Shown here: piece by piece, positions 1,028 through 55,432 of the stretch
Layout: each line of letters begins with the position of its first letter
Position numbering within the stretch: the first letter of the stretch is position 1
Source of the DNA: Citreicoccus inhibens
GTDB taxonomy: Bacteria; Myxococcota; Myxococcia; Myxococcales; Myxococcaceae
Length of the DNA: 64,000 bases
Assembly (NCBI RefSeq): GCF_019039035.1
Contig: NZ_JAHNZT010000009.1
Span: 186,001-250,000, forward strand
Reading direction: 5' to 3'
Position numbers and translations under genes: made by a program
Notes under the pieces: generated by a model
Database searches by the model: none
Seen by the model: the letters and a program-made list of their open reading frames with translations, nothing else
Told to the model about the DNA's origin: nothing

Positions 1028-3433
1028 GTGCTGAGTTCCCTGAATCAAGACATGCGGTATGCGCTGCGCACGCTGCGAGGCAGCCCGGGCTTCGTGCTGG
1101 CCGCGGTGTTGGCGCTCGCGCTGGGGATTGGCGCGAACAGCGCGGTCTTCAGCGTGGTGAATGGGGTGCTGCTCACGCCGCCGCCGTTCCGAGAGCCCGA
1201 GCGGCTCGTGCACCTCTCCAATGACTTCGCCAAGGCGGGCATCCGGCTCGCGCCCGTGTCGATGCCTGAGTACCGCGACCATCAATCCCTGGCGCGGGTC
1301 TTCTCGTCGGTGGCGGCGTATGTCCAAGGTGACCTGACCCTCACGGGGCGGGACACGCCGGTACGGCTCGGCGCGACGTCCTCCACCGCGTCGCTCTTCT
1401 CCACGCTGGGCGTGACGCCCGCGCTGGGGCGGACGTTCACCGAGGCGGAGGAGGTTCCGGGGCGCGACAAGGTGGTGGTGCTCACGCAGAAGGCGTGGCG
1501 GGTGTACTTCGCCGCGGACCCCGCGGTGCTCGGCCGGAGCCTGCTCCTCGACGGTGAGTCTTACACCGTGGTGGGCGTGCTGCCCCCGGGCGTGGCGTAT
1601 CCGGCGGACACGGACCTCTACCGTCCCTTCGCGCCGCCGCCCGAGCAGACCACGGAGGCGCAGCGCGGGGAGCGCTACCTCTCGATGCTGGGGCGGCTGA
1701 AGCCGGGCGTGACGCTGGAGGCCGCTCGCCAGGACATGACGCGCGTCATGGCGCTCATGGTGGCGGATCATCCCAAGTATGGAAACGGCGGCTGGTCCAT
1801 CCAGTTGAGGTCGCTGGAGGACCTGGTGGTGGGGGACGTGAGGGGGACGCTGTGGATGCTGTTGGGGGCGGTGGGGTTCGTGCTGCTGGTGGCGTGCTCG
1901 AGCGTGGCGAACCTGCTGCTGGCGCGAGCAGCGACGCGGAGCCGCGAGGTGTCGATTCGAGCGGCGCTGGGAGCCGGGCGCGGGCGGCTGGTGGCGCAAT
2001 TCCTGACGGAGAGCCTGCTGCTGGCCGCGGCGGGCGGCGTGTTGGGATTGCTGCTGGCGATGTGGGGGACGGACGCGCTGCTGACGCTGGTGGGAGAGAG
2101 CCTGCCGCGCGCGGCGGAGGTGAAGCTGGACAGGTGGTCGCTGCTGTTCACCGGAGGCATGTCGTTGCTGACGGGGCTGTTGTTTGGGTTGGTGCCGGCG
2201 TTGCAGTCGAGCCGGGCGGACCTGAGCGCGGCGATGCGGCAGGGGGCGAAGGGGACGGCGGAGGGCGCGGTGAAGCTGCGCTCGGGGCTGGTGGTGGCGC
2301 AGATGGCGCTGGCGTTGGTGCTGCTGGTGGGAGCGGGGTTGTTCGCGAAGAGCTTCCTGGCGCTGCGCTCGGTGGACGTGGGCTTCACGCCCGAGGGGGT
2401 GTTGACGGGTCAGCTCTCGCTCCCGGCCACGCGCTACAAGGAATCGGAGCGTCAGGTGGCCTTCCACCGCGAGCTGCTGGAGCGGATTCAATCGCTGCCA
2501 GGAGTGGAGTCAGCGGGGCTCACCAACATCCTGCCGTTGGGCGGACGCTTGACGCGCGGCTTTGAGATCGAGGGACGGACGAAGGGCCCGGGCGAGGTGT
2601 GGCCGGCCGTGCAGTTCCGCACGGTGAGCCCCGACTATCTGCACACGTTGCGCGCGACGCTGCGCGAGGGCCGGATGTTGGATGCGCGCGATGATGCGGC
2701 GGCACCCGGCGCGGCGATCATCAACAAGTCGCTCGCGGACTTCTTCTGGCCGCGAGGGGACGCGGTGGGCAAGCGGCTGCGGCTGGGGAATCCCGCCGCG
2801 GCTTGGACGACGGTGGTGGGCGTGGTCGACGACTTGCGCGAGTGGGGCGTGGATCAACCGGCGCGCCCCGCCATGTACTACGCCCTCGCGCAGTTTCCTT
2901 CCGCGGACCTGGCGCTCGCGGTGCGCGCGAAGGACAGCGTGCGCGCGAGCGTGGAGGCGGAGCTGCGGGCGATGGACCGAGACGTGCCGATGTTCGCGGT
3001 GAGCCCGTTGTCTCGACTGGTGGACGAGTCGATTGGCTCGCGGCGGCTGTCGGCGCTGCTGATGGGGCTGTTCGCGGGAGTGTCGCTGGTGCTGGCGGCG
3101 CTCGGAATCTCGGGAGTGATTGCGTACGCGGTGGCGCAGCGGACGCGAGAGATGGGGATTCGGATGGCGTTGGGCGCGGAGCCGGGAGATGTGTTGCGGC
3201 TGGTGTTGGGGCAGGGGATGAGGCTGGCGGGGCTGGGCGTGGGCGTGGGGCTGGTGCTGTCACTGGGATTGGCGAGGCTGTTGGGGTCGATGCTGTACGG
3301 GGTGACAGCGTATGACCCGTGGACGTTCGTGGGCGTGGCGGCGCTGCTGAGCGGCGTGGCGCTGTTCGCGACCTGGTTGCCCGCGCGTCGGGCGACGCGG
3401 GTAGACCCCATCATCGCGCTGCGCGCGGAGTGA
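1028..3433 (+). CDS. ADOP/MacB-FtsX family ABC transporter permease (copy 1)
   Basis: An 801-residue inner-membrane permease of the duplicated MacB type, twice the length of a usual FtsX permease. Order of parts: one TM segment near residues 20-42, a first periplasmic MacB core domain, a three-TM FtsX block around 275-390, another TM near 425, a second periplasmic domain (about 445-665), and a final FtsX block to the C-terminus ending in PARRATRVDPIIALRAE. The start is a GTG with GGAGG 5 nt upstream. The product probably works with the flanking ATPases and the adaptor to extrude a peptide, lipid or drug. It is nearly identical to the next gene in the membrane-encoding parts but diverged in the periplasmic ones. 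Confidence 0.9.
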   Translation: MLSSLNQDMRYALRTLRGSPGFVLAAVLALALGIGANSAVFSVVNGVLLTPPPFREPERLVHLSNDFAKAGIRLAPVSMPEYRDHQSLARVFSSVAAYVQGDLTLTGRDTPVRLGATSSTASLFSTLGVTPALGRTFTEAEEVPGRDKVVVLTQKAWRVYFAADPAVLGRSLLLDGESYTVVGVLPPGVAYPADTDLYRPFAPPPEQTTEAQRGERYLSMLGRLKPGVTLEAARQDMTRVMALMVADHPKYGNGGWSIQLRSLEDLVVGDVRGTLWMLLGAVGFVLLVACSSVANLLLARAATRSREVSIRAALGAGRGRLVAQFLTESLLLAAAGGVLGLLLAMWGTDALLTLVGESLPRAAEVKLDRWSLLFTGGMSLLTGLLFGLVPALQSSRADLSAAMRQGAKGTAEGAVKLRSGLVVAQMALALVLLVGAGLFAKSFLALRSVDVGFTPEGVLTGQLSLPATRYKESERQVAFHRELLERIQSLPGVESAGLTNILPLGGRLTRGFEIEGRTKGPGEVWPAVQFRTVSPDYLHTLRATLREGRMLDARDDAAAPGAAIINKSLADFFWPRGDAVGKRLRLGNPAAAWTTVVGVVDDLREWGVDQPARPAMYYALAQFPSADLALAVRAKDSVRASVEAELRAMDRDVPMFAVSPLSRLVDESIGSRRLSALLMGLFAGVSLVLAALGISGVIAYAVAQRTREMGIRMALGAEPGDVLRLVLGQGMRLAGLGVGVGLVLSLGLARLLGSMLYGVTAYDPWTFVGVAALLSGVALFATWLPARRATRVDPIIALRAE

Positions 3434-4811
3434 GTGAATCCATGAGCATGTTGCTTCAGGACGTGAAGTACGCGCTGCGCACGTTGAAAGGCAGCCCAGG
3501 CTTCGTGTTGGCCGCGGTGCTAGCGCTCGCGCTGGGGATTGGCGCGAACAGCGCGGTCTTCAGCGTGGTGAACGGGGTGCTGCTCACGCCGCCACCGTTC
3601 CGAGAGCCCTCGCGGCTCGTGCACCTCTTCGGCAACTTCAAGGCCGCGGACTTGAAGGACATCTCGGTGTCCGTGCCCGAGTACCACGACTACCAGGAGA
3701 TGCCGCGGGTCCTCGAGAGCGTGGCGGCGTACGCGCCGACCAGCCTGACGATGACCGGGGGCGACACGCCGCTGCGCTTCACCGTCGTGTACAGCACGGC
3801 GTCGTTCTTCTCCACGCTCGGCGTGCAGCCGATATTGGGGCGCTTCTACACGCAGGAGACGGAGACGCCGGGCCGCGACAAGGAAGTGGTGCTCACGCAG
3901 AAGGCGTGGCGCATCCACTTCGGCAAGGACCCCGCCGTGCTCGGGCACGTGCTCGTGCTCGACGGTGAGTCCTACACGGTGGTGGGCGTGCTGCCGGCGG
4001 GTGTGTCGTATCCGGCGGACACGGACCTCTACATTCCCTTCGCGCCTCCTCCCATGACGTCCACCGATTCCCGGCGGGGCAACCGCTACCTGGACGTGGT
4101 GGCGCGGCTCAAGCCGGGCGTGACGCTGGAGGCGGCGCGCCGGGACCTGGCGCGGGTGTCGGGTGAGCAAGAGGCTGCGTACCCCGACAACTACAAGGAC
4201 GGCGGCTGGGGCATCAGCGTCAACTCCATGGAGGACCTGGTGGTGGGGGACGTGAGGGGGACGCTGTGGATGCTGCTGGGGGCGGTGGGGTTCGTGCTGC
4301 TGGTGGCGTGCTCGAGCGTGGCGAACCTGCTGCTGGCGCGAGCAGCGACGCGGAGCCGCGAGGTGTCGATTCGAGCGGCGCTGGGAGCCGGGCGCGGGCG
4401 GCTGGTGGCGCAATTCCTGACGGAGAGCCTGCTGCTGGCCGCGGCGGGCGGCGTGTTGGGATTGCTGCTGGCGATGTGGGGGACGGACGCGCTGCTGACG
4501 CTGGTGGGAGAGAGCCTGCCGCGCGCGTCGGAGGTGAAGCTGGACGGGTGGTCGCTGCTGTTCACCGGAGGCATGTCGTTGCTGACGGGGCTGTTGTTTG
4601 GGTTGGTGCCGGCGTTGCAGTCGAGCCGGGCGGACCTGAGCGCGGCGATGCGGCAGGGGGCGAAGGGGACGGCGGAGGGCGCGGTGAAGCTGCGCTCGGG
4701 GCTGGTGGTGGCGCAGATGGCGCTGGCGTTGGTGCTGCTGGTGGGGGCGGGGTTGTTCGCGAAGAGCTTCCTGGCGCTGCGCTCGGTGGACGTGGGCTTC
4801 ACGCCCGAGGG
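1815..4811 (+). repeat. Homogenised direct repeat within the permease pair (583 bp, two copies)
   Basis: Positions 1815-2397 and 4229-4811 align without gaps over 583 bp; by eye I count four mismatches. A second highly similar block covers the 5' ends (about 1060-1200 against 3478-3615) and a third the 3' ends (about 3030-3430 against 5450-5859). The intervening periplasmic-domain segments are clearly diverged. This mosaic pattern indicates gene conversion rather than a simple recent duplication. Confidence 0.85.
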
Positions 4812-5859
4812 CGTGCTCACGGGGCGCGTGTTCCTGCCGGCCACGCGTTACAAGGAGTCGGCGCGCCGGGTGGCCTTCCACCGCGAGTTCCTGGAGCGCG
4901 TGCAGGCGCTGCCGGGAGTGGAGTCGGCGGGACTCACCAACATCCTGCCGCTGGGTGGGCGCTCGGACCGGAGCTTCGACGTCGAGGGCCGCACGGAGGA
5001 CCCCAACGAGCACTTGCCCGCGGTGGAGTACCGCACGGTGACGCCCGACTATCTGCGCACGTTGCGCGTGAAGCTGAGGGCGGGCCGGATGCTCCAGGCC
5101 TCGGATGGTCCGGACTCGCCGTGGGCGGTGGTCATCAACAAGTCCTTCGCGGATGCGTACTGGCCGAGCGGGGACGCGTTGGGCAAGCGCCTGAAGCTGC
5201 ACGGCGACGACACGCAATGGACCACGGTGGTGGGAATCGTGGAGGACCTGCGCGAGTGGAACCTGAGCCAGCCCGCGCGGCCGGCCGCCTATTGGTCCAT
5301 GGCGCAGCTGCCGGCGTCGCGCATGGGGTTGGTGGTGCGCGCGAAGTCGGGCATCGAGGAGTCGGTGCGCGCGAGCGTGGAGGCGGAGCTGCGAGCGGTG
5401 GATCGGGACGTGCCGATGTTCGCGGTGAGCCCGCTGGCGCGGCTGGTGGATGAGTCCATTGGCTCGCGGCGGCTGTCGGCGCTGCTGATGGGGCTGTTCG
5501 CGGGAGTTTCGGTGGTGCTCGCGGCGTTGGGAATTTCCGGAGTGATTGCGTACGCGGTGGCGTTGCGGACGCGCGAGATGGGGATTCGCATGGCGCTGGG
5601 CGCGGAGCGGGGCGATGTGATGAGGCTGGTGCTGGGCCAGGGCATGAAGCTGGCGGGGCTGGGGGTGGGCGTGGGCCTGGTGCTGTCGCTGGGATTGGCG
5701 AGGCTGTTGGGGTCGATGCTGTACGGGGTGACGGCGTATGACCCGTGGACGTTCGTGGGCGTGGCGGCGCTGCTGAGCGGCGTGGCGCTGCTCGCGACCT
5801 GGTTGCCCGCGCGGCGGGCGACGCTGGTGGACCCCATCATCGCGCTGCGCGCGGAGTGA
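3442..5859 (+). CDS. ADOP/MacB-FtsX family ABC transporter permease (copy 2)
   Basis: A paralogue of the preceding permease, 805 residues, with the same two-FtsX-block architecture and the same DPIIALRAE end. I place the start at ATG 3442, 8 nt after the upstream stop, with GGAG about 11 nt before it; a GTG overlapping the upstream stop (3430) is also possible and would add four residues. Periplasmic segments differ from copy 1 (for example KAADLKDISVSVPEYHDY against KAGIRLAPVSMPEYRDH), suggesting different ligands or a heterodimer. It is followed 5 nt later by a second ATPase gene. Confidence 0.9.
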   Translation: MSMLLQDVKYALRTLKGSPGFVLAAVLALALGIGANSAVFSVVNGVLLTPPPFREPSRLVHLFGNFKAADLKDISVSVPEYHDYQEMPRVLESVAAYAPTSLTMTGGDTPLRFTVVYSTASFFSTLGVQPILGRFYTQETETPGRDKEVVLTQKAWRIHFGKDPAVLGHVLVLDGESYTVVGVLPAGVSYPADTDLYIPFAPPPMTSTDSRRGNRYLDVVARLKPGVTLEAARRDLARVSGEQEAAYPDNYKDGGWGISVNSMEDLVVGDVRGTLWMLLGAVGFVLLVACSSVANLLLARAATRSREVSIRAALGAGRGRLVAQFLTESLLLAAAGGVLGLLLAMWGTDALLTLVGESLPRASEVKLDGWSLLFTGGMSLLTGLLFGLVPALQSSRADLSAAMRQGAKGTAEGAVKLRSGLVVAQMALALVLLVGAGLFAKSFLALRSVDVGFTPEGVLTGRVFLPATRYKESARRVAFHREFLERVQALPGVESAGLTNILPLGGRSDRSFDVEGRTEDPNEHLPAVEYRTVTPDYLRTLRVKLRAGRMLQASDGPDSPWAVVINKSFADAYWPSGDALGKRLKLHGDDTQWTTVVGIVEDLREWNLSQPARPAAYWSMAQLPASRMGLVVRAKSGIEESVRASVEAELRAVDRDVPMFAVSPLARLVDESIGSRRLSALLMGLFAGVSVVLAALGISGVIAYAVALRTREMGIRMALGAERGDVMRLVLGQGMKLAGLGVGVGLVLSLGLARLLGSMLYGVTAYDPWTFVGVAALLSGVALLATWLPARRATLVDPIIALRAE

Positions 5860-13583: not shown

Positions 13584-13967
13584 CTAACCGACCGCGTTCT
13601 TCTTGTTGTGGAAGAGCGAGTCCCCCAGTCGGCACACGTTCTTGCCTTCGAATTTCACGTCGAAGGAATACAGCATGAACTCGGCGGCTCCTTGGGTGGA
13701 GCCACTCATGACTCCACCTCCGGCGGTCCCGGCGTCGTCTCCCGACGACTTCTTGTACTGAGCCCCTTTGACCATCGGCATCTTCCCGTTGACCTGAACG
13801 GTCTTGGGGCCCTTGTCCGCGTCCGAGCTCATCGCGACGTTTGGATAGGGAATGGGAATGGGGCCACCCGGGCTCGGGGTCTTGCATACATCTGGAAAGG
13901 CGATGCTCTGCCCGCCGCTGTCCTCCGCGGCGATCCCTCGGCCATTGGCGTAGACCTTTGCACCCAT
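13584..13967 (-). CDS. PAAR-like protein (DUF4150), T6SS tip
   Basis: 127 residues. The N-terminus MGAKVYANGRGI, then FPDVCKTPSPGGPIPIPYPN and KTVQVNGKMPMVKGAQY, matches DUF4150/Tox-PAAR-like proteins, which sharpen the T6SS VgrG spike and carry effectors. Most of the protein is the PAAR-like fold, with no toxin fused behind it, so here the tip and the toxin are separate polypeptides. It is the last gene of a minus-strand run of ketosynthase-like protein, AHH nuclease, immunity protein and PAAR, with 31 bp to the immunity gene. Confidence 0.85.
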   Translation of the reverse strand: MGAKVYANGRGIAAEDSGGQSIAFPDVCKTPSPGGPIPIPYPNVAMSSDADKGPKTVQVNGKMPMVKGAQYKKSSGDDAGTAGGGVMSGSTQGAAEFMLYSFDVKFEGKNVCRLGDSLFHNKKNAVG

Positions 13968-44712: not shown

Positions 44713-45264
44713 ATGCGAATCCGTTATCGCTTGTTGTGGGCTGGCGTGGCGGTGTTGGGGATGGCGGTGCTCGCGGTGTGGCTGTGGCCCTCGCCGAGCG
44801 CGCCGCTGCCCCCGGCCCCGGTGATGGCGGACGCGCCGATGGCCGCTCCTCGCCCGCCGGAGCCTGCGCCGGGTCCGCGCCCGGTGGCGGTGCCCGCCGC
44901 GCCGCGTCCCGTCACGGGCGAGTCGACGGAGGCTCGAGCCACGGTGGTTCCGCCGCGCCCGGGAGATGTCCCGCCCGAGCCGGAGGTCTCGAATCCCCCC
45001 CCGCAGCAGAACGACCCCATCGAGCCGGAGAAGCCCCAGACGGCGCGCTGGCGTCTGGCGAAGACGGAGCGCATCACCGCGGTGCTGGGACGGGACGTGG
45101 AGCGACTGGAGCGCGAGCGGGAGATGGCGGACTCTCGAGGCGACAGCGCGCGACGTGAGCAATTGGAGTTGCTCATTCAGCGTCAGCGCGTGCGGCTGAG
45201 TGAGCTGCGCGAGGAGGTCGCCACGCTCACCGAGGCCGCCAAGAACGAGCCGCCCGAGGAGTGA
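44713..45264 (+). CDS. Membrane-anchored Pro-rich coiled-coil protein, unknown
   Basis: 183 residues (start ATG 44713; GTG 44710 is equally possible). N-terminal TM helix (YRLLWAGVAVLGMAVLAVWLW), a Pro/Ala-rich periplasmic linker (about 30-115) and a charged C-terminal helix, RDVERLEREREMADSRGDSA then RREQLELLIQRQRVRLSELR, that should form a coiled coil. There is no enzymatic motif. A periplasmic spacer or scaffold is a reasonable guess. It is convergent with the oxidoreductase gene. Confidence 0.65.
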   Translation: MRIRYRLLWAGVAVLGMAVLAVWLWPSPSAPLPPAPVMADAPMAAPRPPEPAPGPRPVAVPAAPRPVTGESTEARATVVPPRPGDVPPEPEVSNPPPQQNDPIEPEKPQTARWRLAKTERITAVLGRDVERLEREREMADSRGDSARREQLELLIQRQRVRLSELREEVATLTEAAKNEPPEE

Positions 45265-45289
45265 GCGGCATCGTGGGTGCGCCGGCGGC

Positions 45290-46156
45290 TCAGCGGATCA
45301 GCGCGCGCTCCAGCTCGGTGGCGCCACGGCGGACTTCGCCGACGCCGGCTTCGGCATCGATGTGCCCCGCGTTGTGGGCGTCCTGAAGCTCCGCGACGAG
45401 CTGGGCATAGGCCGCGCTCAGTCCGCCCGCGAGGAGGGCGGGGAGCCATCGCTCGCGCTCCAGTGCCTGCGGGACGACGGGGCGCTCCACGATTCGCTCG
45501 AAGACCTTCGCGACGTCCTGCGCCGAGTAACGGCGAGGCCCTTCTGCATGAACGATGCGAGGGGTGCCGGGCGACGGAGGGGGCTCCCCGAGCAGGTCCG
45601 CCGCGATGAGCCCCACGTCGGGCGCGGACACGGTGGGGTACAGCTTGGTGACGGGGTGGTGCAGGCTCACGAGGACACCGCGCTCGCGCGCCGCGCGCAG
45701 ATGGCGCGCACTGTTCTGCATGTGCTCGGCGGAGCGCAGGAAGGTCATGGGCACCGAGGTCTTGCGGAGCCGCGCCTCGAGCCGATGGAAGATGAGGGTG
45801 ACGCCCGTGCCCGCCGGCACTTGGGCGCCGTAGTCGGAGATGACGACGACGGCACGAGGCCGAGCGATGTCGATGGCGTCGCCCAGCGAGTCGATGATGC
45901 GCTGAGCATCCGCGGCGGGGTCGTCGCCGTTCGCACGCAGCGGGCAGATGACGAGGGCGCCCTCCGCACCCTGGAGGGCACGCGCCACGGCCTGGGGATC
46001 GAGGAGATCCGCCTGGGCCAGCTCACATCCGAGCTGGGCGAGGCGCTCGCCTCGGGTCATGTCGCGCAGAACGGCTCGGACCGGGAGTCCGCGCCGTCGG
46101 AGTTCCGTCGCGGCCGCGCCGCCCACTCTTCCTGTCGCACCAAGGATGACGAACAT
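45290..46156 (-). CDS. NmrA-like NAD(P)-binding protein
   Basis: 288 residues. The Rossmann motif GATGRVGG is at the N-terminus (MFVILGATGRVGGAAATELR), followed by VRAVLRDMTRG and ADLLDPQAVARALQGAEGAL, with a later VVVISDYGAQ. This is the NmrA/SDR-a5 type: oxidoreductases or redox-sensing regulators. The catalytic Tyr-Lys pair of classical SDRs is not evident. It is divergent from the serine protease gene, with a 258-bp gap. Confidence 0.85.
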   Translation of the reverse strand: MFVILGATGRVGGAAATELRRRGLPVRAVLRDMTRGERLAQLGCELAQADLLDPQAVARALQGAEGALVICPLRANGDDPAADAQRIIDSLGDAIDIARPRAVVVISDYGAQVPAGTGVTLIFHRLEARLRKTSVPMTFLRSAEHMQNSARHLRAARERGVLVSLHHPVTKLYPTVSAPDVGLIAADLLGEPPPSPGTPRIVHAEGPRRYSAQDVAKVFERIVERPVVPQALERERWLPALLAGGLSAAYAQLVAELQDAHNAGHIDAEAGVGEVRRGATELERALIR

Positions 46157-46414
46157 GCGGGCGAGAATAGAGGGCGACGGCGCGCCCGTCGCGGCCGACC
46201 TGCGACGATGCGTGTCGTGGGCGCGCTGTCGAACGGTCCCGTGACACGACTGGGACGCCGCGAAGTTGAGTGGCAGCCCGAGCGCCTGGCGGAAGGCGGG
46301 GCGCGACGCGCTGCGTGTGCCGCGCTGTGGGCGCACGACGTTGGAGCGGGTGCGTGGCAAGCCTTGCCCCAACGTGCGATGAGTGAGGCCGCACCGAGGC
46401 AAGGAAGGCCGTGC

Positions 46415-47590
46415 ATGGCAGACCGTCCCTGGATCCTGAGCGCGCTGGGGATGATGTGGCTGGCGACCGCCGTGGGGCTGGGGTGTCAGCCCGTCTCCGA
46501 GCCGGGCGCGGCAATGGCCACGGGCGTTGCTTCGCGGGCCGTGGTTCAGGGCACGGATGCTCCGGGAGACCCAGCCGCTGTCGCGCTCGTGGCGCGGCGT
46601 GCGCGGTGCTCGGGTGAGCCGCCGGTGTTGCTGTGCTCGGGCGCGCTCATCGCGCCGGATGTGGTGCTCACGGCGGCGCACTGTCTCGCGCTTCTCGGGC
46701 AGGACGGTGGCTATGAAGTCTTCGTTGGCCAGCGCCTCCTTCCCGCGCCGGATGGGCAGTTCGTGCGGGTGGCTCACGCCCTCTCGCACCCGGGCTACGT
46801 GCCGGAGACCCACGAGAACGATGTCGCGCTCCTGCGGCTCGCGCGCGCAGTGGACGTGCCGCCGTTCGTGCTCCCGTCGAGGTCCGGTGGGGGGCCCGCC
46901 GTGGGGGATGCGACGCGGGTGCTCGGTTACGGCGACACGAAAGATGCGCAAGCGCCCGCGGGCCTGCGGCGACAGGGCGCGCTGACGGTCACGCGCGTGG
47001 ATGCACGCGCGTTCCATGCAGGCCCTGCGCCCTCGATGAGCTGCGTGGGTGACAGTGGTGGGCCGGTGCTCTGGGCCCAGTCGGGCCCCGAGGTGCTCGC
47101 TGGCATCACGGTGAGCGGTGACGTGGCGTGCCGCACGGAGGCCGTCAACGTGCGAGTGGAGGCCGTCCTGGATGACTTCATCCGGCCGTTCCTCGCGGAG
47201 CCCCCGCTGAGCGACACCTCCACGCTGCACCTCGATGCGCTCTGTCGCGAGTCTTGCGCCGATGCTCGCGAATGTCCGTCCGGCCTCGCGTGTGTCGCGT
47301 CCGCGGGCGGCCCAGGTCGCTGCGTGTTGTCAGCGCTCCAGGATGGAGACTTCGGTGCGCACTGCGCGGAGGACGCCGCCTGTGCCTCAGGAATCTGCGC
47401 GAGGCTCGACTCCGACGGCGCAGAGGCGTGTCGTTGCTTCACGCCGTGCGCCGCGCCGCCCGAGCCCACCGAGGCCCCGGACGCGTCGAAAGCAGAAGGC
47501 TGTGCCTCCACGTCGGGTCTGCTGCCTGGGTTGGCAGGTTGGGTCATCCTGGCCACGCGTCGCCGCGCCCGTTCGTCATGGATTGGCTGA
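46415..47590 (+). CDS. Trypsin-like serine protease with MYXO-CTERM-like tail
   Basis: 391 residues from ATG 46415 (AAGGAAGG upstream). Signal peptide with lipobox-like AVGLGC, then a trypsin domain: His in LTAAHC (about 88), Asp in ENDVALLRLA (about 135), Ser in SCVGDSGGPVL (about 212). Behind it are a Cys-rich linker (LCRESCADARECPSGLACVA, CAEDAACASGICARL, CRCFTPC) and a C-terminal tripartite tail, GCASTSGLLPGLAGWVILAT followed by RRRAR, matching the MYXO-CTERM sorting signal, which is processed by a myxosortase for surface display. Likely a surface protease used in predation. Confidence 0.9.
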   Translation: MADRPWILSALGMMWLATAVGLGCQPVSEPGAAMATGVASRAVVQGTDAPGDPAAVALVARRARCSGEPPVLLCSGALIAPDVVLTAAHCLALLGQDGGYEVFVGQRLLPAPDGQFVRVAHALSHPGYVPETHENDVALLRLARAVDVPPFVLPSRSGGGPAVGDATRVLGYGDTKDAQAPAGLRRQGALTVTRVDARAFHAGPAPSMSCVGDSGGPVLWAQSGPEVLAGITVSGDVACRTEAVNVRVEAVLDDFIRPFLAEPPLSDTSTLHLDALCRESCADARECPSGLACVASAGGPGRCVLSALQDGDFGAHCAEDAACASGICARLDSDGAEACRCFTPCAAPPEPTEAPDASKAEGCASTSGLLPGLAGWVILATRRRARSSWIG

Positions 47591-47669
47591 ATTGCTAGCA
47601 TTGTGAGTGTTGCTGGATTGTGTGGTCTGCTTTTCGGGCGGCATGTCGCCGCTCGGGAGGAAGCCCTCG

Positions 47670-49868
47670 ATGCGCAATCGATTGCTCGCGGTCTGTCTCA
47701 CCCTCGTCCAGTTCGCATGTGAAGGAACCCAGCCACCCCTGCCGACTTCCGCGCCCGTCGCACGGGACTCGGGCGAGGACATCCAGGCGGCGCTGCGTGC
47801 GTTGCCCTCGGCGGAATCAGCCGGCGCGGGCGAGGAGGGGGTTCCATTCCTCGTGCGAGGTGACCTGGGCCGGGTCGAGGTCTCGGGACAGGCGCTCTCC
47901 GCGCGCGACACCGAGGCGCGTGCGAGCGCCGTGCTGGAGTCCATCGCTCCGGTGTTCCGCCTGCGCTCTTCGGAGTTGGTCCTGCGCCGCTCCAGCCAGG
48001 ACGCGCGCGGTGACACGCATCTGCGCTACGGCCAGAGGCACGAAGGGCTGGAGGTCATCGGACAGGAGCTCATTCTCCACGTGGATGGCTCGGGGCGCGT
48101 CTTCGCCGCGAATGGCACGGCGCGCGGAGACGCAGCCGCGCCGGTGCCCTCGGACGCGCGCCTGTCGCCGGCGGAGGCGGGCGTGGTCGCGCTGGGCGCC
48201 ACGCCGGGAGGCTCGCGCGTGGAGGGGACGCCTCGGCTCGCCTATGTCCGTGCCTCCGCGGAGGCGCGCCTGTCGCTCGTGTTCGAGGCGGTGGTCACCG
48301 GCGTGTTCGCGGCGCTGCCCGTGCGTGACCACGTCTATGTCAATGCGCTCGACGGCGCGGTGGTGTCTCGCACCTCGGACATCCACGAGGTGAAAAACCG
48401 CCGCATCTACTCCGCCAACGGAGGCTATGCGCTGCCGGGAGCCCTGAAGCGCGCCGAGGGGGGCGTCGCCTCCACGGATGCGGCCGTCAATGCGGCCTAC
48501 GACAACCTGGGCCGTTTCTACGACTGCTACCAATCCCTCTTCGGGCGTGACTCCTTCAATGGCACGGGCGGCGCGCTGCTGGCGAGCGTCCACTATGGCA
48601 GCACCTATGTGAATGCCTATTGGGACGGCACGCAGATGGTCTGCGGTGACAGCCCCACCACGGGGCCGCTGTGCAATGACATGGACATCGTCATGCACGA
48701 GTTCACCCATGCCGTGACGCAGTCCGAGTCCAACCTCAGCTACACGGGCGAGCCCGGCGGCCTCAACGAGAGCCTCTCCGACATGGGCGCCGCCTACTGC
48801 GAGAGCTGGGTCTTGGGCGGCTCCACGGCGCCAGAGGTCTGGCGCATCGCCGAGGACACCTTCGGTGCGTCTGCCTATTCGTTGGCGGATCCCGCGCGCA
48901 ATGGTGGCTCGGTGGACTTCTATGGCGACTTCGACGCGAGCGCGGACCCCCACCTGGGCGCGGGCATCCCGGGCCTGGTCTTCTCGCTGCTCGCGCAGGG
49001 CGGAACGCATCCGCGCGGGCTCACCTGCAACCCGGTTGCGTCCATCGGACTCACGCGCGCCGCGGTGATTTTCTACATGGCGAACACCAACTACTTCACG
49101 CCCACCACCACGTTCGCCCAGGCGAAGGCCCTCACCGAAACGGTGGCGGACACCTATTACGGGCCGACGGTGAAGGCCTCGGTGACCCAGGCGTGGCTGG
49201 CCGTGGGCGTGGGGACGGGCCTGGGGGTCGCGTGTCCGCCCGTCGCGCTCGCCAACGGCGTGGGCGTGCGTCAACTCTATGGCGCGCTGGGCAGCTCCAC
49301 CGCCGTGTACGCCATCACGCTGCCCGCCGGCGCCTCCAACCTGGTGGTGAGCGCCAGCGGAGGCACGGGCGACGCGGACCTCTATCTCCGCTTCGGCGCC
49401 GCGCCCACCTCCACGCTGTATGACTGCCGTCCCTATCTCACGGGGACCGCCGAGTCCTGCGTCTACGCCACCCCGGCGGTAGGCACCTACTACGTCATCC
49501 TGCGCGGTCGAGACGCCTTCGCCGGCGTCACCCTGCGCGCCTCCTTCACGCGCCCGGATGGCTCCACCGTGCTGTGGGTGCCGGACTTGGCGGGGGCCAC
49601 TGGCTCGCTCCAGACCTGGAGCTACTCGGCCGTGGCCGGACAGTCCGTCACCTTCTCGCTGTCCCCCGGTCCGTCGGGCGCCACGGGAGACGCGGACCTC
49701 TATGTCCGCTTCGGAGGGCCGGCCTCACCCACCCTCTATGACTGCCGTTCCTCCAACAAGGACAACCTGGAGCAGTGCGGTCCGCTGACCCACGCCACGG
49801 CGGGCACGTACTCCGTCCTCGTGCACGGGTACTCGGCCTTCACGGGCGTGGACGCGCTGGTGCAGTAA
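47670..49868 (+). CDS. M4 (thermolysin-type) metalloprotease with two PPC domains
   Basis: 732 residues from ATG 47670 (GGGAGGA upstream). Signal peptide, an FTP propeptide (about 60-200, LRYGQRHEGLEVIGQELILH), an M4 catalytic domain with HEFTHAVTQSESNLSYTGEP (zinc His about 343 and 347) and third ligand in GGLNESLSDMGAAY, and two C-terminal PPC domains (about 530-630 and 640-732), each with GDADLYLRFG or GDADLYVRFG and a YYVILRGRDAF/YSVLVHGYSAF end. PPC domains are usually removed after secretion. It is presumably a major extracellular protease for prey protein. Confidence 0.95.
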   Translation: MRNRLLAVCLTLVQFACEGTQPPLPTSAPVARDSGEDIQAALRALPSAESAGAGEEGVPFLVRGDLGRVEVSGQALSARDTEARASAVLESIAPVFRLRSSELVLRRSSQDARGDTHLRYGQRHEGLEVIGQELILHVDGSGRVFAANGTARGDAAAPVPSDARLSPAEAGVVALGATPGGSRVEGTPRLAYVRASAEARLSLVFEAVVTGVFAALPVRDHVYVNALDGAVVSRTSDIHEVKNRRIYSANGGYALPGALKRAEGGVASTDAAVNAAYDNLGRFYDCYQSLFGRDSFNGTGGALLASVHYGSTYVNAYWDGTQMVCGDSPTTGPLCNDMDIVMHEFTHAVTQSESNLSYTGEPGGLNESLSDMGAAYCESWVLGGSTAPEVWRIAEDTFGASAYSLADPARNGGSVDFYGDFDASADPHLGAGIPGLVFSLLAQGGTHPRGLTCNPVASIGLTRAAVIFYMANTNYFTPTTTFAQAKALTETVADTYYGPTVKASVTQAWLAVGVGTGLGVACPPVALANGVGVRQLYGALGSSTAVYAITLPAGASNLVVSASGGTGDADLYLRFGAAPTSTLYDCRPYLTGTAESCVYATPAVGTYYVILRGRDAFAGVTLRASFTRPDGSTVLWVPDLAGATGSLQTWSYSAVAGQSVTFSLSPGPSGATGDADLYVRFGGPASPTLYDCRSSNKDNLEQCGPLTHATAGTYSVLVHGYSAFTGVDALVQ

Positions 49869-49934
49869 CGGCGGCCTGGAATCATCCACTCCGGGAAGAT
49901 TGCCGGGGCGTGTCGTTCTGCAGGAGCCAGTGAA

Positions 49935-49948
49935 GGGGCCCGGGCCCC
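49935..49948. promoter_or_regulatory. 14-bp perfect palindrome between protease and secreted-protein genes
   Basis: GGGGCCCGGGCCCC is fully self-complementary. It lies 67 bp after the protease stop and 36 bp before the next start, in a 116-bp gap. It could be part of a terminator or an operator. Confidence 0.3.
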
Positions 49949-49984
49949 CGAGCGGGCGGATTCCTCACTGACGAGCACACGCCT

Positions 49985-52645
49985 ATGTCCCAGAAAAGCA
50001 GTCGTATCGCGGCGGGAGTCGCCGCGAGCGCCCTCCTCATGTCTCCGATAGCGGCCCGGGCCGCTGTCTCCACCGGGCCCATCATCATCATCGACCCGTG
50101 TGTCCTCTACACGCTCACCCTCGCGGGCTGCCAGAACCCACAGAACTCCTGTGAGACCGCCGCCCGCGAGCGCGCGAAGACGGACCCGGACGCCACCTGC
50201 AACACGCTCATCAAGCAGGCCGCGGATGCACAGGCCGCGACCATGCCGCAGCGCACGGTGGTGGTGCCCACGCTGCGCAAGTCGGACGGCACTTCGGTGA
50301 CGCCCCCCGAGCCCACCCGCACCGCCGCCATCCAGAAGGATGACCCCAACGGCTACTCCATGAGTGGCCTGGGGTCGTTCTATCTGGGTCAGGTGCACCG
50401 CGCGCAGACGTACCTGCCCGAGACGAGCGCGTACTCCGACTATCTGGCCAACTACCGGCAGCAGCAGCGCGACGCGTGGAACGCGAACGGCTACGCGCTC
50501 ACGTCCTGCTCCGAGTACGTCTACGAGAAGTACTACGACTACAGCGTCTTCGAGGACGCCATCGTGTCGCGCGGCAGTGATTACCGCGGCATCTACAGCG
50601 TCGCGTATGCCATTGCCCGCGCGCCCTACTTGCCGCCCGCGTCGGCCATTGGCACGCGAGGCATCTCGGACCCCGTCCAGCGCGGCAAGGACGGCACGCC
50701 CTTCTCGCCGGCCATCACGTTCCCGCAGGGCGAGCCGAAGAACCAGTTCTTCACCGTGCCCGTCTCCACGTCCAGCAAGGTGAGCATCCTGAAGGGCGGG
50801 ACGCAGGACTCCGTGGCCTACGGGCCCAACGGCGTCATCCTCATCTCGATGAAGGACTTGCAGCGCACGCGCCTGGACCTGTCGGGCGTGGCGTTCGAGG
50901 ACGCGGCGCTCAAGCCGCTCATCGACGCGGGCGCGCACTACTACGATGAGAGCTGGGCGTGGCACAAGCAGATGAACGCGCGCAACGCCTCCGTGCTCGA
51001 CGAGCAGATGTACGAGCTGGAGCGCAAGCAGGAGGACTTCAGCCAACTGCTCGCCAAGCGCGAGGAACTCGTCAACACCATCGCGTCGATGTTCAACCCG
51101 AAGCCGCCGCTGGTGGGCACCGCGCCGCGCTTCACGGACAACTGGTGGAGGGATCCGGTCTGGAACCCGGACCCCATCGCGGTGAACCAGTTCGCGCAGG
51201 TGAACATCAACGTGCTGCCGCAGGTGGGCACGCTGGCCGCGCCGACCACGCTCACCTCGACGAACACGCGGGCCGCGACGACCTCGCTCGCGTCGACGAG
51301 CACGCAGTCCGCCGTCGTCATCCCGGGCCCCATCATCACCCAGCAGCCGGTGCTCTCGCCCATCAACACGGCGGCGCTCTCCACCATCTGCACCGGCAAC
51401 CCCATCATCTGCCTGCTCTACCGCCTGGAGGCGCTGGACGGCGCCATCGAGCAGTCGCTGCACGACGCGCAGGCCCTGGGCTGCCTGGACTTCAACACCA
51501 CCGGCCCCGCGGCGTGTGACTGGTCGCCCAAGCGCTTCGCCAGGCGCGTGCTGGGCCAGTACCAGGTCGAGCGCGAGAAGGGCTTCCAGAAGTGCTCGGA
51601 CTACACCGACAACGACTTCACCTCGCTCAAGACGAAGGTGATGGCGGCGGGCAGCGTCAACTACCCGTCCACGGACTACACCACCAGCCCCGCGAAGCTG
51701 GAGCAGTACTTCGTGCGTCGGGACATCTACCTGAACGCCCTGCGCAACGTGACGGGCGACCTCATCGACCCGGCCACCGGCAAGGCCCGCGTGAAGTGGG
51801 AGGCGGGTGACTCGTACAGCATGGGCGACGACACGTTCGGCGCGTCCGCCACGTACAACGTCTCCTTCGAGATGAGCAACCTGGGCCAGAGCGACTGCGC
51901 CGCCTCGCCGCGCGCGTACGGCAGCTTCACGGCCACGGGCCGCGCGTTCGGCTCCTCGGTGCAGTTGGTCAGCGCGCTGGCGGACGTGACGGATCAGCAC
52001 GCCAAGGTGAAGTTGGACGTGCTCGACAACTCCGTCCACCTGGTCAACGTGGACAAGGACATCCCGGTGGGCACGTACAACGTGGTGTCCGGCTCGAAGA
52101 TGAAGAGCGCCACGTTCGTGCAGGCCGAGGTCACCTTCGTCATCGTCGTGGTGCCCGTGACGCTGGGCGCGAAGGTGGGCGGCACGGTGGGCCTCAACTA
52201 CGCGGTGGATGCCAAGCACGACGTCACGACGACCAACGGCTGCAAGGTCAACTCCATCGGCGTCAGCGGCACCGTGTCGCCGTTCGCCTCGGTGGACGGT
52301 GAGCTGTACGCGGGCGTGGACCTGTTCATCGTGTCCGCGGGCGTGAAGGGCAAGCTCCAGGTGGTGCATGCCTCCATCCCGCTCCAGGCCAGCGCGTCGC
52401 TCGTGTACGGCGCGGGTGGCAACAGCGTGCTCACCTTGAACCTGGCCGCGCGCAGCGACCTGAAGTTCACCTTCCTCTCCGGCTCCATCGCCGCGTTCGT
52501 GGAAGTGGGCTTCTGCCCGGCCTGCGTCTCCTACGACGCCACGCTCGTGAGCTGGGACGGCCTCCACTACGACATCAACCTCTTCAACAAGTCCGTCGTC
52601 GTGCCGCTCGCGGACGTGCAGTACCTCGTGACGCACGCCCTCTGA
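49985..52645 (+). CDS. Large secreted protein, unrecognised; possible lipid-binding partner of the downstream vitellogenin-like protein
   Basis: 886 residues. Signal peptide (ASALLMSPIAARAA), then no family I recognise. About 1-470 is mixed, with Cys pairs (CVLYTLTLAGC, SCETAARERA), a helical segment DEQMYELERKQEDFSQLLAK and a Thr/Ser-rich stretch (TLTSTNTRAATTSLASTSTQ). About 600-886 is almost wholly beta-type, with long amphipathic strands (VTFVIVVVPVTLGAKVGG, LFIVSAGVKGKLQVVHASI, LKFTFLSGSIAAFVEVG). It is 59 bp ahead of the next gene, in what looks like one operon. That pairing and the strand-rich half suggest a lipid-carrying role; this is inference. Confidence 0.7.
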   Translation: MSQKSSRIAAGVAASALLMSPIAARAAVSTGPIIIIDPCVLYTLTLAGCQNPQNSCETAARERAKTDPDATCNTLIKQAADAQAATMPQRTVVVPTLRKSDGTSVTPPEPTRTAAIQKDDPNGYSMSGLGSFYLGQVHRAQTYLPETSAYSDYLANYRQQQRDAWNANGYALTSCSEYVYEKYYDYSVFEDAIVSRGSDYRGIYSVAYAIARAPYLPPASAIGTRGISDPVQRGKDGTPFSPAITFPQGEPKNQFFTVPVSTSSKVSILKGGTQDSVAYGPNGVILISMKDLQRTRLDLSGVAFEDAALKPLIDAGAHYYDESWAWHKQMNARNASVLDEQMYELERKQEDFSQLLAKREELVNTIASMFNPKPPLVGTAPRFTDNWWRDPVWNPDPIAVNQFAQVNINVLPQVGTLAAPTTLTSTNTRAATTSLASTSTQSAVVIPGPIITQQPVLSPINTAALSTICTGNPIICLLYRLEALDGAIEQSLHDAQALGCLDFNTTGPAACDWSPKRFARRVLGQYQVEREKGFQKCSDYTDNDFTSLKTKVMAAGSVNYPSTDYTTSPAKLEQYFVRRDIYLNALRNVTGDLIDPATGKARVKWEAGDSYSMGDDTFGASATYNVSFEMSNLGQSDCAASPRAYGSFTATGRAFGSSVQLVSALADVTDQHAKVKLDVLDNSVHLVNVDKDIPVGTYNVVSGSKMKSATFVQAEVTFVIVVVPVTLGAKVGGTVGLNYAVDAKHDVTTTNGCKVNSIGVSGTVSPFASVDGELYAGVDLFIVSAGVKGKLQVVHASIPLQASASLVYGAGGNSVLTLNLAARSDLKFTFLSGSIAAFVEVGFCPACVSYDATLVSWDGLHYDINLFNKSVVVPLADVQYLVTHAL

Positions 52646-52704
52646 GGCGCGCGTTCCGAGTCCCCACCTCCGCACGCGCCTGACCTGGCCTGAAGGAAAC
52701 ACCC

Positions 52705-54567
52705 ATGCGCACCCGTCTGCTCATCACCCTCGGCGTCGCCGGGGCCCTTGCCCTGCTGTTGGCCGTGGGACTCGGCCTCTTCTCCGAGTCACCCGCGGTG
52801 GTCCCCGACGCCCCCGTCCGCTTCGCCTTCCCGAGCGGAAGGGCCTGGGCGTGGCGCCTGTCGTACGACGCCGCCAGCCACGTGACGCTGTCTGGGACGT
52901 CCGGTGCCGCGGGCACCTCGTCCCTGGCCGGGCGCGTGTTGCTGGACGGGCGGCTGGTGCTCAAGGGCCTGGGCAAGCAAGGTGACGCGTGGCGCGTGGG
53001 CCTGCGGCTGGAAGACTTGCGGCAGCACTCGTTGCAAGTCTTTGGCAAGGAAGTGCTCCCGGATGCGGCGTCCACCGACGCCATCTTCCAGGGGCGCGAG
53101 GCCGTGCTGGAGGTGGGCCCGGAGGGAGACGTGCGCAGCGTCTCCTTCCGGGAGCAGGACCCGTCCCTCTTCAAGAACACCGTGCAGGCCTTGGTGGGGG
53201 ACCTGCAGGTGGTGTTGCGCGACGGCGAGGCGTGGACGGTGGAGGAGTCCACCTCGCGAGGCCGCGCTCGCACGGGCTACACGCGCCGAGGCGCGGATGA
53301 TGCGCAGGGCGCGCACCTGGAGAAGCGCCGCGACGTGTACACGGAGGTGGTGGGCCTGGGACAAGGTGGCCCGCTCCGCGTGGACTCACACTTCCTGGCG
53401 GACGTGTCGCGCGCCGGGTTGTTGGAGCGACTGGAGGGCGAAGAGACGGTGGAGCGCCTGGGCCCCACGGGCACGGCGCTGGCGGGCACCACGGTGCACC
53501 TGCGCCTGGTGCGTGAAGAGGGCGGCGTGGCGCCGGACGCGGCCCCGTCCTCGGTGGTGGCCGAGGCCCAGCAGCGCCTGCCGCCGGGGCGCATGGTGGT
53601 GGAGGCCCAGACGCGCGAGAACATGCTGGCGCAGCAGGTGGATGGCCTCACCGTGGAGAAGCTCGATTCCTTGCTGAAGTCCTTCGGCCGCGGCGGCGTG
53701 ATGCCCGACCACAACCATTTCCTCCTCCAGGCCACGGGCCTCTTGGAGCAGCAGCCCGCGCTGTGCGCGCACATGGTGGACGTCTTCCGAGACCCGGCGA
53801 TGGGCAGTCAGGGCCGCGCGCTGGTGCTGGACCTGCTGGCCGGCGCGGGCACGCCCGAGGCCCAGGCCGCGTTGGTGGACGCGCTGCGCACCCCCGAGGC
53901 CCATGCCGAGCGCTACCACATGATGCTCAGCCGACTGTCGCTGCTCACCGAGCCCACGGTGGAGACGGTGCGCTTCGCCCAGTCACTCTACGGTGGCACC
54001 GACGGCGACGTGCACATCGCCAGCGCGTACTCGCTGGGCGCCACCGCGGGCGCGCTCTACCGCAACGCGCATTCCCCCGAGGCGCTGGCCGCAGTGCAGC
54101 GAATCGCCTCCGACTTGCGCGACGCGAAGGCCCCGGTGGATCAGGCCCACCTGCTGCTGAGCCTGGGCAACGCGGGCGTGCCCGAGACCGTGGCCACGGT
54201 GATGCAGTACGCCCACGCCGACAACGCCGAGGTGCGCGAGGCCGCTGCCAAGGCGCTGCGCAAGGTGCGAGGCCCCGAGGTGGAGAGCGCCCTCATGGGG
54301 CTGGCCCACGACGCCGCGGTGCCCGTGCAGGCCACCGCCTTCGAGTCCCTGGGGCGCCAGAAGCTCCAGGCCGATGCGCTGGTGCAACTGCGTGACCTGG
54401 CGCTGGCCGGACAGGTGAACGTGCAGAACTACCACGGGCTCGTTTCATTGGTGGAGCCGTACGTCCACACCGAGCCCGCCGTGCGCGACCTGCTCGAGTA
54501 CCTGCTCACCCAGGACGTGCCGGACCGGCAGATTCGCACCCGCATCCGCGGGCTGCTGGAAGGCTGA
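52705..54567 (+). CDS. Vitellogenin/LLTP N-terminal-module-like protein (beta-barrel plus helical superhelix)
   Basis: 620 residues with an N-terminal signal or anchor helix (LLITLGVAGALALLLAVGLG). About 35-290 is a beta-rich domain that follows the order of the lipid-transfer N-sheet: FPSGRAWAWRLSYDA, GRVLLDGRLVLKGLG, EGDVRSVSFREQDPSLFKNT (compare the eukaryotic rule of a G-x-V strand then N-x-x-R), EESTSRGRARTGYTRRG and a basic LEKRRDVY. About 315-620 is a right-handed helical superhelix with GTPEAQAALVDALRTPEAHA, LTEPTVETVRF, LLLSLGNAGVPETVATVMQY and VREAAAKALRKVRG, the GTPEAV, PT and LGNAG signatures of vitellogenin_N. Generic HEAT annotation would hide this. A periplasmic or outer-membrane lipid-transfer role is inferred. 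Confidence 0.65.
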   Translation: MRTRLLITLGVAGALALLLAVGLGLFSESPAVVPDAPVRFAFPSGRAWAWRLSYDAASHVTLSGTSGAAGTSSLAGRVLLDGRLVLKGLGKQGDAWRVGLRLEDLRQHSLQVFGKEVLPDAASTDAIFQGREAVLEVGPEGDVRSVSFREQDPSLFKNTVQALVGDLQVVLRDGEAWTVEESTSRGRARTGYTRRGADDAQGAHLEKRRDVYTEVVGLGQGGPLRVDSHFLADVSRAGLLERLEGEETVERLGPTGTALAGTTVHLRLVREEGGVAPDAAPSSVVAEAQQRLPPGRMVVEAQTRENMLAQQVDGLTVEKLDSLLKSFGRGGVMPDHNHFLLQATGLLEQQPALCAHMVDVFRDPAMGSQGRALVLDLLAGAGTPEAQAALVDALRTPEAHAERYHMMLSRLSLLTEPTVETVRFAQSLYGGTDGDVHIASAYSLGATAGALYRNAHSPEALAAVQRIASDLRDAKAPVDQAHLLLSLGNAGVPETVATVMQYAHADNAEVREAAAKALRKVRGPEVESALMGLAHDAAVPVQATAFESLGRQKLQADALVQLRDLALAGQVNVQNYHGLVSLVEPYVHTEPAVRDLLEYLLTQDVPDRQIRTRIRGLLEG

Positions 54568-54589
54568 GCCCCTCCCCTCGGGGTGGGGC
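54568..54589 (+). terminator. GC hairpin directly after the vitellogenin-like gene
   Basis: GCCCC-T-CCCC (54568-54577) pairs with GGGG-T-GGGGC (54580-54589) around a 2-nt loop with one T-T mismatch, starting immediately after the stop. The T-run of a canonical terminator is missing. Confidence 0.4.
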
Positions 54590-54724
54590 AGGCCCGCCTC
54601 AGACGCGGGCCCCTGGTGGGCGGGCTGGCCCTGGAGTTGCTTGGGCGTGGGTACCTTGTCTCCAGGAGCGTCCCTTCGTGGCAGCGGTGCCGCGAGGGTG
54701 CGGTCCGCCTGCCTCGGACACACC

Positions 54725-55432
54725 ATGTCCCAGCCTCCCAGCGCGTTCCCCGCCTTGCTGTCCATGCTGCGCCGCCACGGCCTGGTGCCGGCGCTCCTGT
54801 GCAGCACCGCCGCCGTGGCCCTGTTGGCCTTCCGGCTGGATTGGAGTCAGGGCGCCAGCTACGTGTTTCTCCTCTGGAATCTCATCCTCGCGTGGCTGCC
54901 GTACCTGCTGGCCCTCGCCGCGCGCTGGTTGATGGTGCGCGGGCAGGAGCGCTGGTGGAGCCTGGGGCCGCTCGCCGTCGCGTGGTTGGCCCTCTTCCCC
55001 AACGCGCCCTACCTGCTCACGGACTTCATCCACCTGAGCCAGCGGCCCGTCGTGCCGATGTGGTTCGACGCGGCCCTGCTCGCGCTGTTCGCCGCCACCG
55101 GGTGGTTGCTCGGGCTGCTGTCGCTGGAGATATGGAAGCACTGGCTTCAGCGCCGCTGGGGGCCCGTGGGGGCGTGGGCCTTCGTCGCGCTCACCTCGCT
55201 CTTGTGCGGCTATGGCATCTACCTGGGCCGCGTGGAGCGCTGGAACAGCTGGGACGTGCTGGCGGATCCCCGGCGCCTCTTGTCCGCGGTGCATGCCCAC
55301 GCCACCGCGCCCGGGGACTTCCCGTACCTGCTCGGGGTGACGGTCCTCTTCGCCGCGCTGCTGCTCCTGTCCTACGCCGCCTTTGAGTCGCTGCGCCTGC
55401 GCTTCCGCCGCGCGCAATGGCAGCGGAGCTGA
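54725..55432 (+). CDS. DUF1361 integral membrane protein
   Basis: 235 residues with about six TM segments. Family motifs: FLLWNLILAWLPYLLALAAR, LFPNAPYLLTDFIHL, WFDAALLALFAATGWLLGLL and GIYLGRVERWNSWDVLADPR. These polar-rich loops are characteristic of DUF1361; function is unknown. The ATG at 54725 is chosen from the start of family similarity; no strong ribosome binding site is visible. Confidence 0.88.
   Translation: MSQPPSAFPALLSMLRRHGLVPALLCSTAAVALLAFRLDWSQGASYVFLLWNLILAWLPYLLALAARWLMVRGQERWWSLGPLAVAWLALFPNAPYLLTDFIHLSQRPVVPMWFDAALLALFAATGWLLGLLSLEIWKHWLQRRWGPVGAWAFVALTSLLCGYGIYLGRVERWNSWDVLADPRRLLSAVHAHATAPGDFPYLLGVTVLFAALLLLSYAAFESLRLRFRRAQWQRS

Follow-up and report, generated by a model that had tools for sequence, protein, structure and literature searches.

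The window analysed here is a 64,000-nucleotide stretch of the myxobacterium Citreicoccus inhibens (contig NZ_JAHNZT010000009.1, positions 186,001 to 250,000), whose genome comprises 9.05 Mb in 123 contigs. Two of its genes lie in tandem on the same strand, each with an ATG start: P0002, encoding a probably exported partner protein, and P0001, whose product resembles the N-terminal module of the large lipid transfer proteins (LLTPs). The papers found treat LLTPs, among them MTP, apoB and vitellogenin, as a superfamily of animals (for example PMC1783640). We think it probable that the two genes are a split relative of the animal LLTPs, encoding a split LLTP-like lipid-transfer complex. Both open reading frames lie where an earlier note on this DNA had placed them, and the peptides that it quoted (FKNTVQALVGDLQVVL, GTPEAQAALVDAL, LTEPTVET and LLLSLGNAGVPETVATVMQY) are present in the P0001 translation. 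An opposite-strand open reading frame of 988 codons overlaps the P0002 gene and is regarded as an artefact of high GC content. No promoter- or terminator-like sites were found in 49800-54800. Coordinates of all features are collected in Table 1.

Table 1. Features of the P0002-P0001 locus, in window coordinates (AF2, AlphaFold2).
Feature	Position	Strand	Basis
Partner gene P0002, exported protein with C-terminal beta domain, 886 aa	49985..52645	+	Open reading frame, translation, pairing of homologues
P0002 Sec signal peptide, probable, ending ...AARA	49985..50062	+	Direct reading and simple pattern match
P0002 residues 596-875, amphipathic beta domain, putative lipid-holding sheets	51770..52609	+	AF2 strands, Foldseek, VIA, amphipathicity
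59-bp intergenic stretch with GAAGGAA ribosome-binding-like sequence	52646..52704	+	Sequence
LLTP-like gene P0001, 620 aa	52705..54567	+	PF01347 match of 38.5 bits; predicted structure
P0001 N-terminal membrane anchor (putative), residues 3-24	52711..52776	+	Hydrophobic window 2.56 after MRTR; predicted helix 3-24, low pLDDT
P0001 N-terminal half beta-barrel (predicted), residues 48-275, 11 strands	52846..53529	+	AF2 model; apoB barrel alignment
Helix inserted in P0001 barrel (predicted), residues 154-167	53164..53205	+	AF2 model
P0001 helical (HEAT-like) superhelix (predicted), residues 304-619	53614..54561	+	AF2 model; PF01347 and HEAT_2 matches
P0001 motif L487-G488-N489; N489 at about the place of human MTP N479	54163..54171	+	Conservation; comparison with MTP (PMC7444587)

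The vitellogenin likeness that the earlier note proposed for P0001 was borne out by the PF01347 (Vitellogenin_N) search. The profile matched above its cut-off of 24 bits, aligning residues 371-538 to profile positions 356-543, and because of this score the likeness of the helical part is more than a chance match. All 18 aligned family members (alignment A1, P0001 included) matched both Vitellogenin_N and HEAT_2 at E <= 0.01. A profile of these 18 reached lipovitellin (1lsh) at E 2.5e-11, as a single match of profile 87-546 to chain 19-507, and MTP at E 5.6e-9. Three PF01347 matches in the C. inhibens genome exceed the cut-off; matches occurred in 24 of 60 genomes with this one included, and passed the cut-off in 12. 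Paralogues in the family are near 20% identical. Alignment A1 is too diverse to suit a single profile search, and an eight-row subfamily alignment found 12 loci. A scan of genome contigs with P0001 as a single protein returned no relative, and neither P0001 nor one partner domain matched anything when searched against plasmids.

Several sequence results weigh against an LLTP assignment. Many alphaRep designs outscored both lipovitellin and MTP when the 18-member profile was searched against the PDB, so that much of the family's sequence signal is HEAT-like; on P0001 itself HEAT_2 scored 40.2 bits, slightly above Vitellogenin_N. In phmmer, P0001 reached MTP in the PDB only at E about 0.48-0.49. 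The barrel domain alone matched 0 Pfam families, and its profile gave no LLTP match by sequence in the PDB. PF01347 touched the barrel in just 2 of the 18 members (best E 0.0019), and among ten single barrel domains run against Pfam it touched one, at profile 84-150. When the profile was cut at residue 458, leaving the barrel and first helices, lipovitellin was lost and alphaReps remained. At the sequence level it is mainly the helical half that carries the LLTP claim, and the barrel is without sequence proof.

Structure prediction extends the likeness to both halves. The AlphaFold2 model of P0001, built from P0001 and 12 homologues (alignment A4) with no templates, has a mean pLDDT (predicted local distance difference test score) of 82.6 and a pTM (predicted template modelling score) of 0.53. 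When it was compared by Foldseek with 350,542 PDB chains, ranks 1-10 were all LLTPs (E 1.8e-17 to 4.7e-8), in the order MTP, MTP, lipovitellin, apoB, apoB, apoB, MTP, apoB, honey-bee vitellogenin and apoB beta barrel. An alphaRep followed at rank 11 with E 1e-5, and other HEAT/ARM proteins scored 1e-5 or worse. TM-scores of the LLTP rows were modest, 0.34-0.47 by query length, a further point against the assignment. VIA-align placed P0001 on lipovitellin 1lsh over 542 residues (Z 19.9, root-mean-square deviation (rmsd) 10.0), on 9bd8_A, the barrel chain of apoB, with 307 residues aligned in model 40-389 (Z 18.9, rmsd 5.4), and on MTP 6i7s_G with model 37-610 matching MTP 22-614 (Z 17.0, rmsd 12.6). 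The high full-length rmsd may come from differing placement of the two domains. HEAT/ARM proteins, aligning to the helical half alone, reached Z 15-19. Identity to animal LLTPs in the structural alignments was 11-15%, and to MTP 14-15%.

Prediction and comparison together show an LLTP N-terminal module in the P0001 model: a half beta-barrel with an inner helix, then a helical superhelix. The comparison with lipovitellin that the earlier note called for came out in its favour, with both domains covered by the ten best PDB matches; the beta-domain that it described stands by predicted structure and not by sequence. P0001 as nothing but HEAT repeats is largely refuted, an LLTP-type N-terminal domain being present in the model.

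P0002 had no match to any Pfam family, nor did 12 partner proteins. At a beta periodicity of 170 degrees, its residues 596-875 stand out from shuffles as amphipathic (z = 5.8, vs z = -1.9 for residues 1-595), in keeping with the amphipathic strands that the earlier note saw at the end of the 886-residue protein. In an AlphaFold2 model made with 11 partner homologues (alignment A5), residues 589-874 form a series of long strands, with pLDDT ranging from 42 to 86 between ten-residue blocks. The first three Foldseek ranks went to MTP (E 1.7e-4), MTP (2.3e-4) and lipovitellin (3.5e-4), each at probability 1.00; MTP 8eoj came at rank 7 (0.94) and honey-bee vitellogenin at rank 12 (0.47), while non-LLTP kinds stayed at or below 0.38 among the best 50 rows. 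VIA-align ranked MTP 8eoj_B third (Z 8.1, 217 residues, rmsd 7.3), pairing P0002 605-877 with MTP 613-880, and aligned 6i7s_G over 230 residues (Z 6.6, MTP 614-877). The P0002 domain matches MTP from where the P0001 match stops, 613-880 after 22-614, so the two chains tile MTP. These comparisons support, less certainly than for P0001, a C-terminal domain folded like the lipid-holding sheets of LLTPs. The earlier note's suggestion of a lipid-holding sheet upstream fares accordingly: it is favoured by the matches to MTP and lipovitellin, and less firm on account of the low-confidence model.

The points against this fold bear also on the best-surviving alternative, in which P0001 is an LLTP module but the P0002 beta domain is an outer-membrane or cell-surface structure, and the pair a periplasmic scaffold or assembly factor. 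We consider this unlikely. The P0002 model is poor (mean pLDDT 45.3), and its Foldseek TM-scores are 0.10-0.15 by query length, low because most of the query is disordered. No LLTP match was found for the partner by sequence in the PDB or Pfam. VIA-align put the autotransporter barrel 3qq2 first (Z 9.6, 118 residues) and FhaC second (Z 8.3, rmsd 32), with many other outer-membrane barrels at Z 6-8, a good number of them at 15-32 Å rmsd; the method calls Z under 8 middling, and the 8.1 for MTP is near that level. An aromatic residue at the C-terminus is a signature of outer-membrane beta-barrels. F, W or Y is the last residue in 11 of 59 partners but not in the other 48, among them P0002, which ends in L. 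The Foldseek ranking likewise speaks against an outer-membrane structure, as does the fact that the MTP region aligned to P0002 is the very part that P0001 lacks.

Partners differ in their N-terminal halves. In long ones such as P0002 this half (residues 1-595, 49985-51769) is of low predicted confidence, with a helix at 310-370, and short partners of about 390-450 residues are without it.

Pairing was surveyed in 195 Myxococcota genomes with one profile for P0001-type proteins (A6) and one for the partner domain (A7). A6 matched in 81 genomes and A7 in 74, mostly in the window's own bacterial family. At least 115 of 134 partner matches were within 2.5 kb of a P0001-type match, and at least 122 of 134 adjoined an LLTP-like gene once seven were added from barrel-domain matches listed in a wider search; the 134 are matches rather than genes, two of them (G055:C311) being pieces of one place. 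The two profile matches of a pair were separated by 170-1175 bp. Gene order among the 115 close pairs was partner first in tandem (85), P0001-type first (24) or divergent (6). None of the 59 pairs examined, from at least 122, was fused. These searches show the pair to be co-conserved in Myxococcota, so that the survey of other myxobacteria proposed in the earlier note came out in favour of its reading. On the other side, 36 of 150 P0001-type matches among those listed had no listed partner nearby, and 21 unpaired P0001-type proteins had no partner in the fetched stretch, although one such region (L147) ends at a contig end.

The two domains also diverged together. Their distance matrices correlated at 0.951 over the 59 pairs, compared with a mean of 0.316 (standard deviation 0.076, maximum 0.631) in 1000 within-genome partner shuffles, and nearest neighbours agreed in 33 of 42 loci vs a shuffle mean of 8.6 and maximum of 20. 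This shows, at the level of sequence, that the two domains were kept and duplicated together; physical contact is beyond what co-divergence says, and correlated distances do not require it because linked genes co-diverge anyway.

A wider search covered 384 genomes, at least 189 of them outside the phylum. The barrel domain alone was found in 73 (E <= 1e-5) and the partner domain in 72 (E <= 1e-6); every matching genome was inside Myxococcota, and both domains also occurred outside the window's family within the phylum. This spread argues against the idea that myxobacteria acquired an animal LLTP gene recently and that it split after arrival, as do the divergence among paralogues and the 11-15% identity to animal LLTPs. 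The idea of transfer draws on the description of LLTPs from animals in the literature found, and we hold it to be very improbable. Slighter still is the chance that P0001 is an ordinary membrane-anchored HEAT-repeat protein beside an unrelated beta domain, its LLTP likeness a HEAT cross-reaction: the HEAT_2 score, the alphaReps heading the profile search, the HEAT/ARM alignments over the helical half and PF01347 matches in 2 of 14 control genomes (in one of them passing the cut-off) all favour such cross-reaction, but the ten best Foldseek matches are LLTPs and the apoB barrel chain aligns to the N-terminal half.

One motif hints at how the chains of the proposed split LLTP might meet. In human MTP, L477 and N479 link the helical domain with the lipid sheet, N479 by a bond (PMC7444587). 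In P0001 the residues L487-G-N489 are offset by 10 from these, and L487 and N489 are invariant in the 13 rows of A4. The correspondence of N489 with N479 is drawn from the ends of a weak phmmer match (E 0.49; P0001 376-524 against 8eoj_B 361-514) and the shared L-x-N spacing; the offset applies at the C-terminal end of that match and holds if there is no gap between, which is not residue-by-residue proof. Aligning P0001 to MTP residue by residue by sequence gave no LLTP alignment. N was found at this position in 58 of 59 paired proteins vs 5 of 21 unpaired paralogues, the latter having R in 14, N in 5 and L in 2. The unpaired set was obtained from 26 rows (R 14, N 10, L 2) by dropping five N rows read as paired or weakly paired (L049:5997, L143:6671, L144:6617, L148:2 and L161). 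The contrast comes from non-independent events, since the unpaired proteins look alike, and we treat it as a lead rather than a test.

Unpaired P0001-type paralogues were noted directly after dnaA (Pfam DnaA) at two loci, L048 87-3524 and L049 6021-11471; at L049, dnaA is between a paired and an unpaired P0001-type gene. In L142, L157 and L160, unpaired P0001-type genes occupy a similar position close to the start of a contig.

The two products appear to differ in cellular placement. An N-terminal hydrophobic window above 1.6 was present in 44 of 58 P0001-type proteins (L103 was dropped for want of upstream residues). The stretch usually, by eye, follows basic residues and precedes a P/A/S/T-rich linker (median 33 residues), and A-x-A was near it in 17 of the 58. 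A simple Sec-signal pattern fitted 43 of 59 partners. Both the anchor and the signal calls use crude patterns, not a trained predictor, with start codons as predicted. Read this way, P0001 looks anchored in the inner membrane rather than secreted, and P0002 is exported with a probable Sec signal peptide. The earlier note's "secreted" operon would hold for the upstream P0002 only.

Most likely, then, the pair acts as a periplasmic, membrane-tethered lipid-transfer complex of two chains that works as MTP does; we infer the complex, its lipid and the direction of transfer. The N-terminal anchor would hold P0001 in the inner membrane and leave its module in the periplasm, a compartment that can be seen as topologically like the lumen of the endoplasmic reticulum, where MTP works. 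The exported P0002 would pack its sheets against the P0001 helical domain and so close a lipid cavity. Such a complex could take hydrophobic lipid from the inner membrane; the lipid would then go to the outer membrane, to the exterior or onto P0002, serving as a mobile carrier.

Several neighbouring genes deserve mention. Just upstream of the pair, at window 45200-49868, Pfam identifies trypsin-like and thermolysin-like (M4, PPC) proteases. Relatives of the M4 protease, 43-44% identical over about 530 residues, were found at four other loci (L047, L052, L054, L055). One cluster has members at six loci (L041, L043, L046, L053, L056, L057), and the one at L056 is a PPC-bearing subtilase. Proteases also process the animal LLTPs. 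The gene after the pair, at window 54641-55432, matches DUF1361 (1.4e-39), an uncharacterised family. Elsewhere in the window are a toxin PAAR-like protein at 13584-13967 (PF13665, 3.8e-39) and a tandem arrangement of MacB and FtsX permease domains, carried by two adjacent genes at 1028-5859.

At 14 of 33 loci, the window not among them, a protein of 147-439 residues with a C...W-A-R-K-C/W motif and mostly a signal-like start was noted near the pair (L032, L034, L041, L043, L044, L046, L047 and L052-L058). Four of five such proteins run against Pfam gave sub-threshold HINT/intein matches (PT-HINT best, at 8.8e-6), and the fifth matched only PPC. A Hedgehog-like self-processing protein next to a lipid carrier would be curious, if so.

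Among the open-access papers listed by literature searches, none could be recognised from the opening of its abstract as dealing with a bacterial LLTP; databases may already carry bacterial PF01347 matches as annotation that no paper describes. If the reading of a split LLTP is true, the pair would be a new kind of lipid mover in the Gram-negative envelope. A bacterial pair cut between the helical and lipid-holding domains would also be a small genetic system for testing lipid loading, and a possible outgroup for the LLTP family. A tentative extension, which we rate as rather unlikely, is that this two-chain system of Myxococcota, with its membrane-tethered barrel/helical module and exported lipid-sheet protein, corresponds in bacteria to the machinery by which animals, later and with one chain, make lipoproteins and yolk, and may even be the split form ancestral to it. 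Myxococcota are known to form triglyceride lipid bodies during development (PMC4048283) and to produce sterols (PMC12004948).

Among known systems, HEAT-repeat proteins and alphaReps resemble P0001 in that its helical half matches HEAT_2; unlike the LLTPs they match that half only, and they come below ten LLTP chains in Foldseek. LolA/LolB, Mce/Mla and AsmA-like bridges are bacterial lipid shuttles with a comparable job, moving lipid between membranes. ApoB-100 (9e9r, 9bd8) shares the N-terminal beta-barrel, but its chain is about 4500 residues long (4526 in target 9ea7), as against 620 and 886 here. Lipovitellin and vitellogenin (1lsh, 9ens) share the PF01347 module, and 1lsh aligns to 542 residues of P0001, but they are one chain, the partner proteins have no Pfam family, and the pair is not known to have a part in yolk. 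Since the one-chain form is absent among the pairs examined, we describe the pair as split LLTP-like, not as a canonical LLTP. The large subunit of MTP (6i7s, 8eoj), which works in complex with protein disulfide isomerase, differs from the pair in being one chain rather than two genes, in the pair's probable membrane anchor and in the low identity to P0001. It is like the pair in its half beta-barrel, its helical domain, a beta domain that the partner matches in length and place, and an L-x-N motif at about the place of L477/N479.

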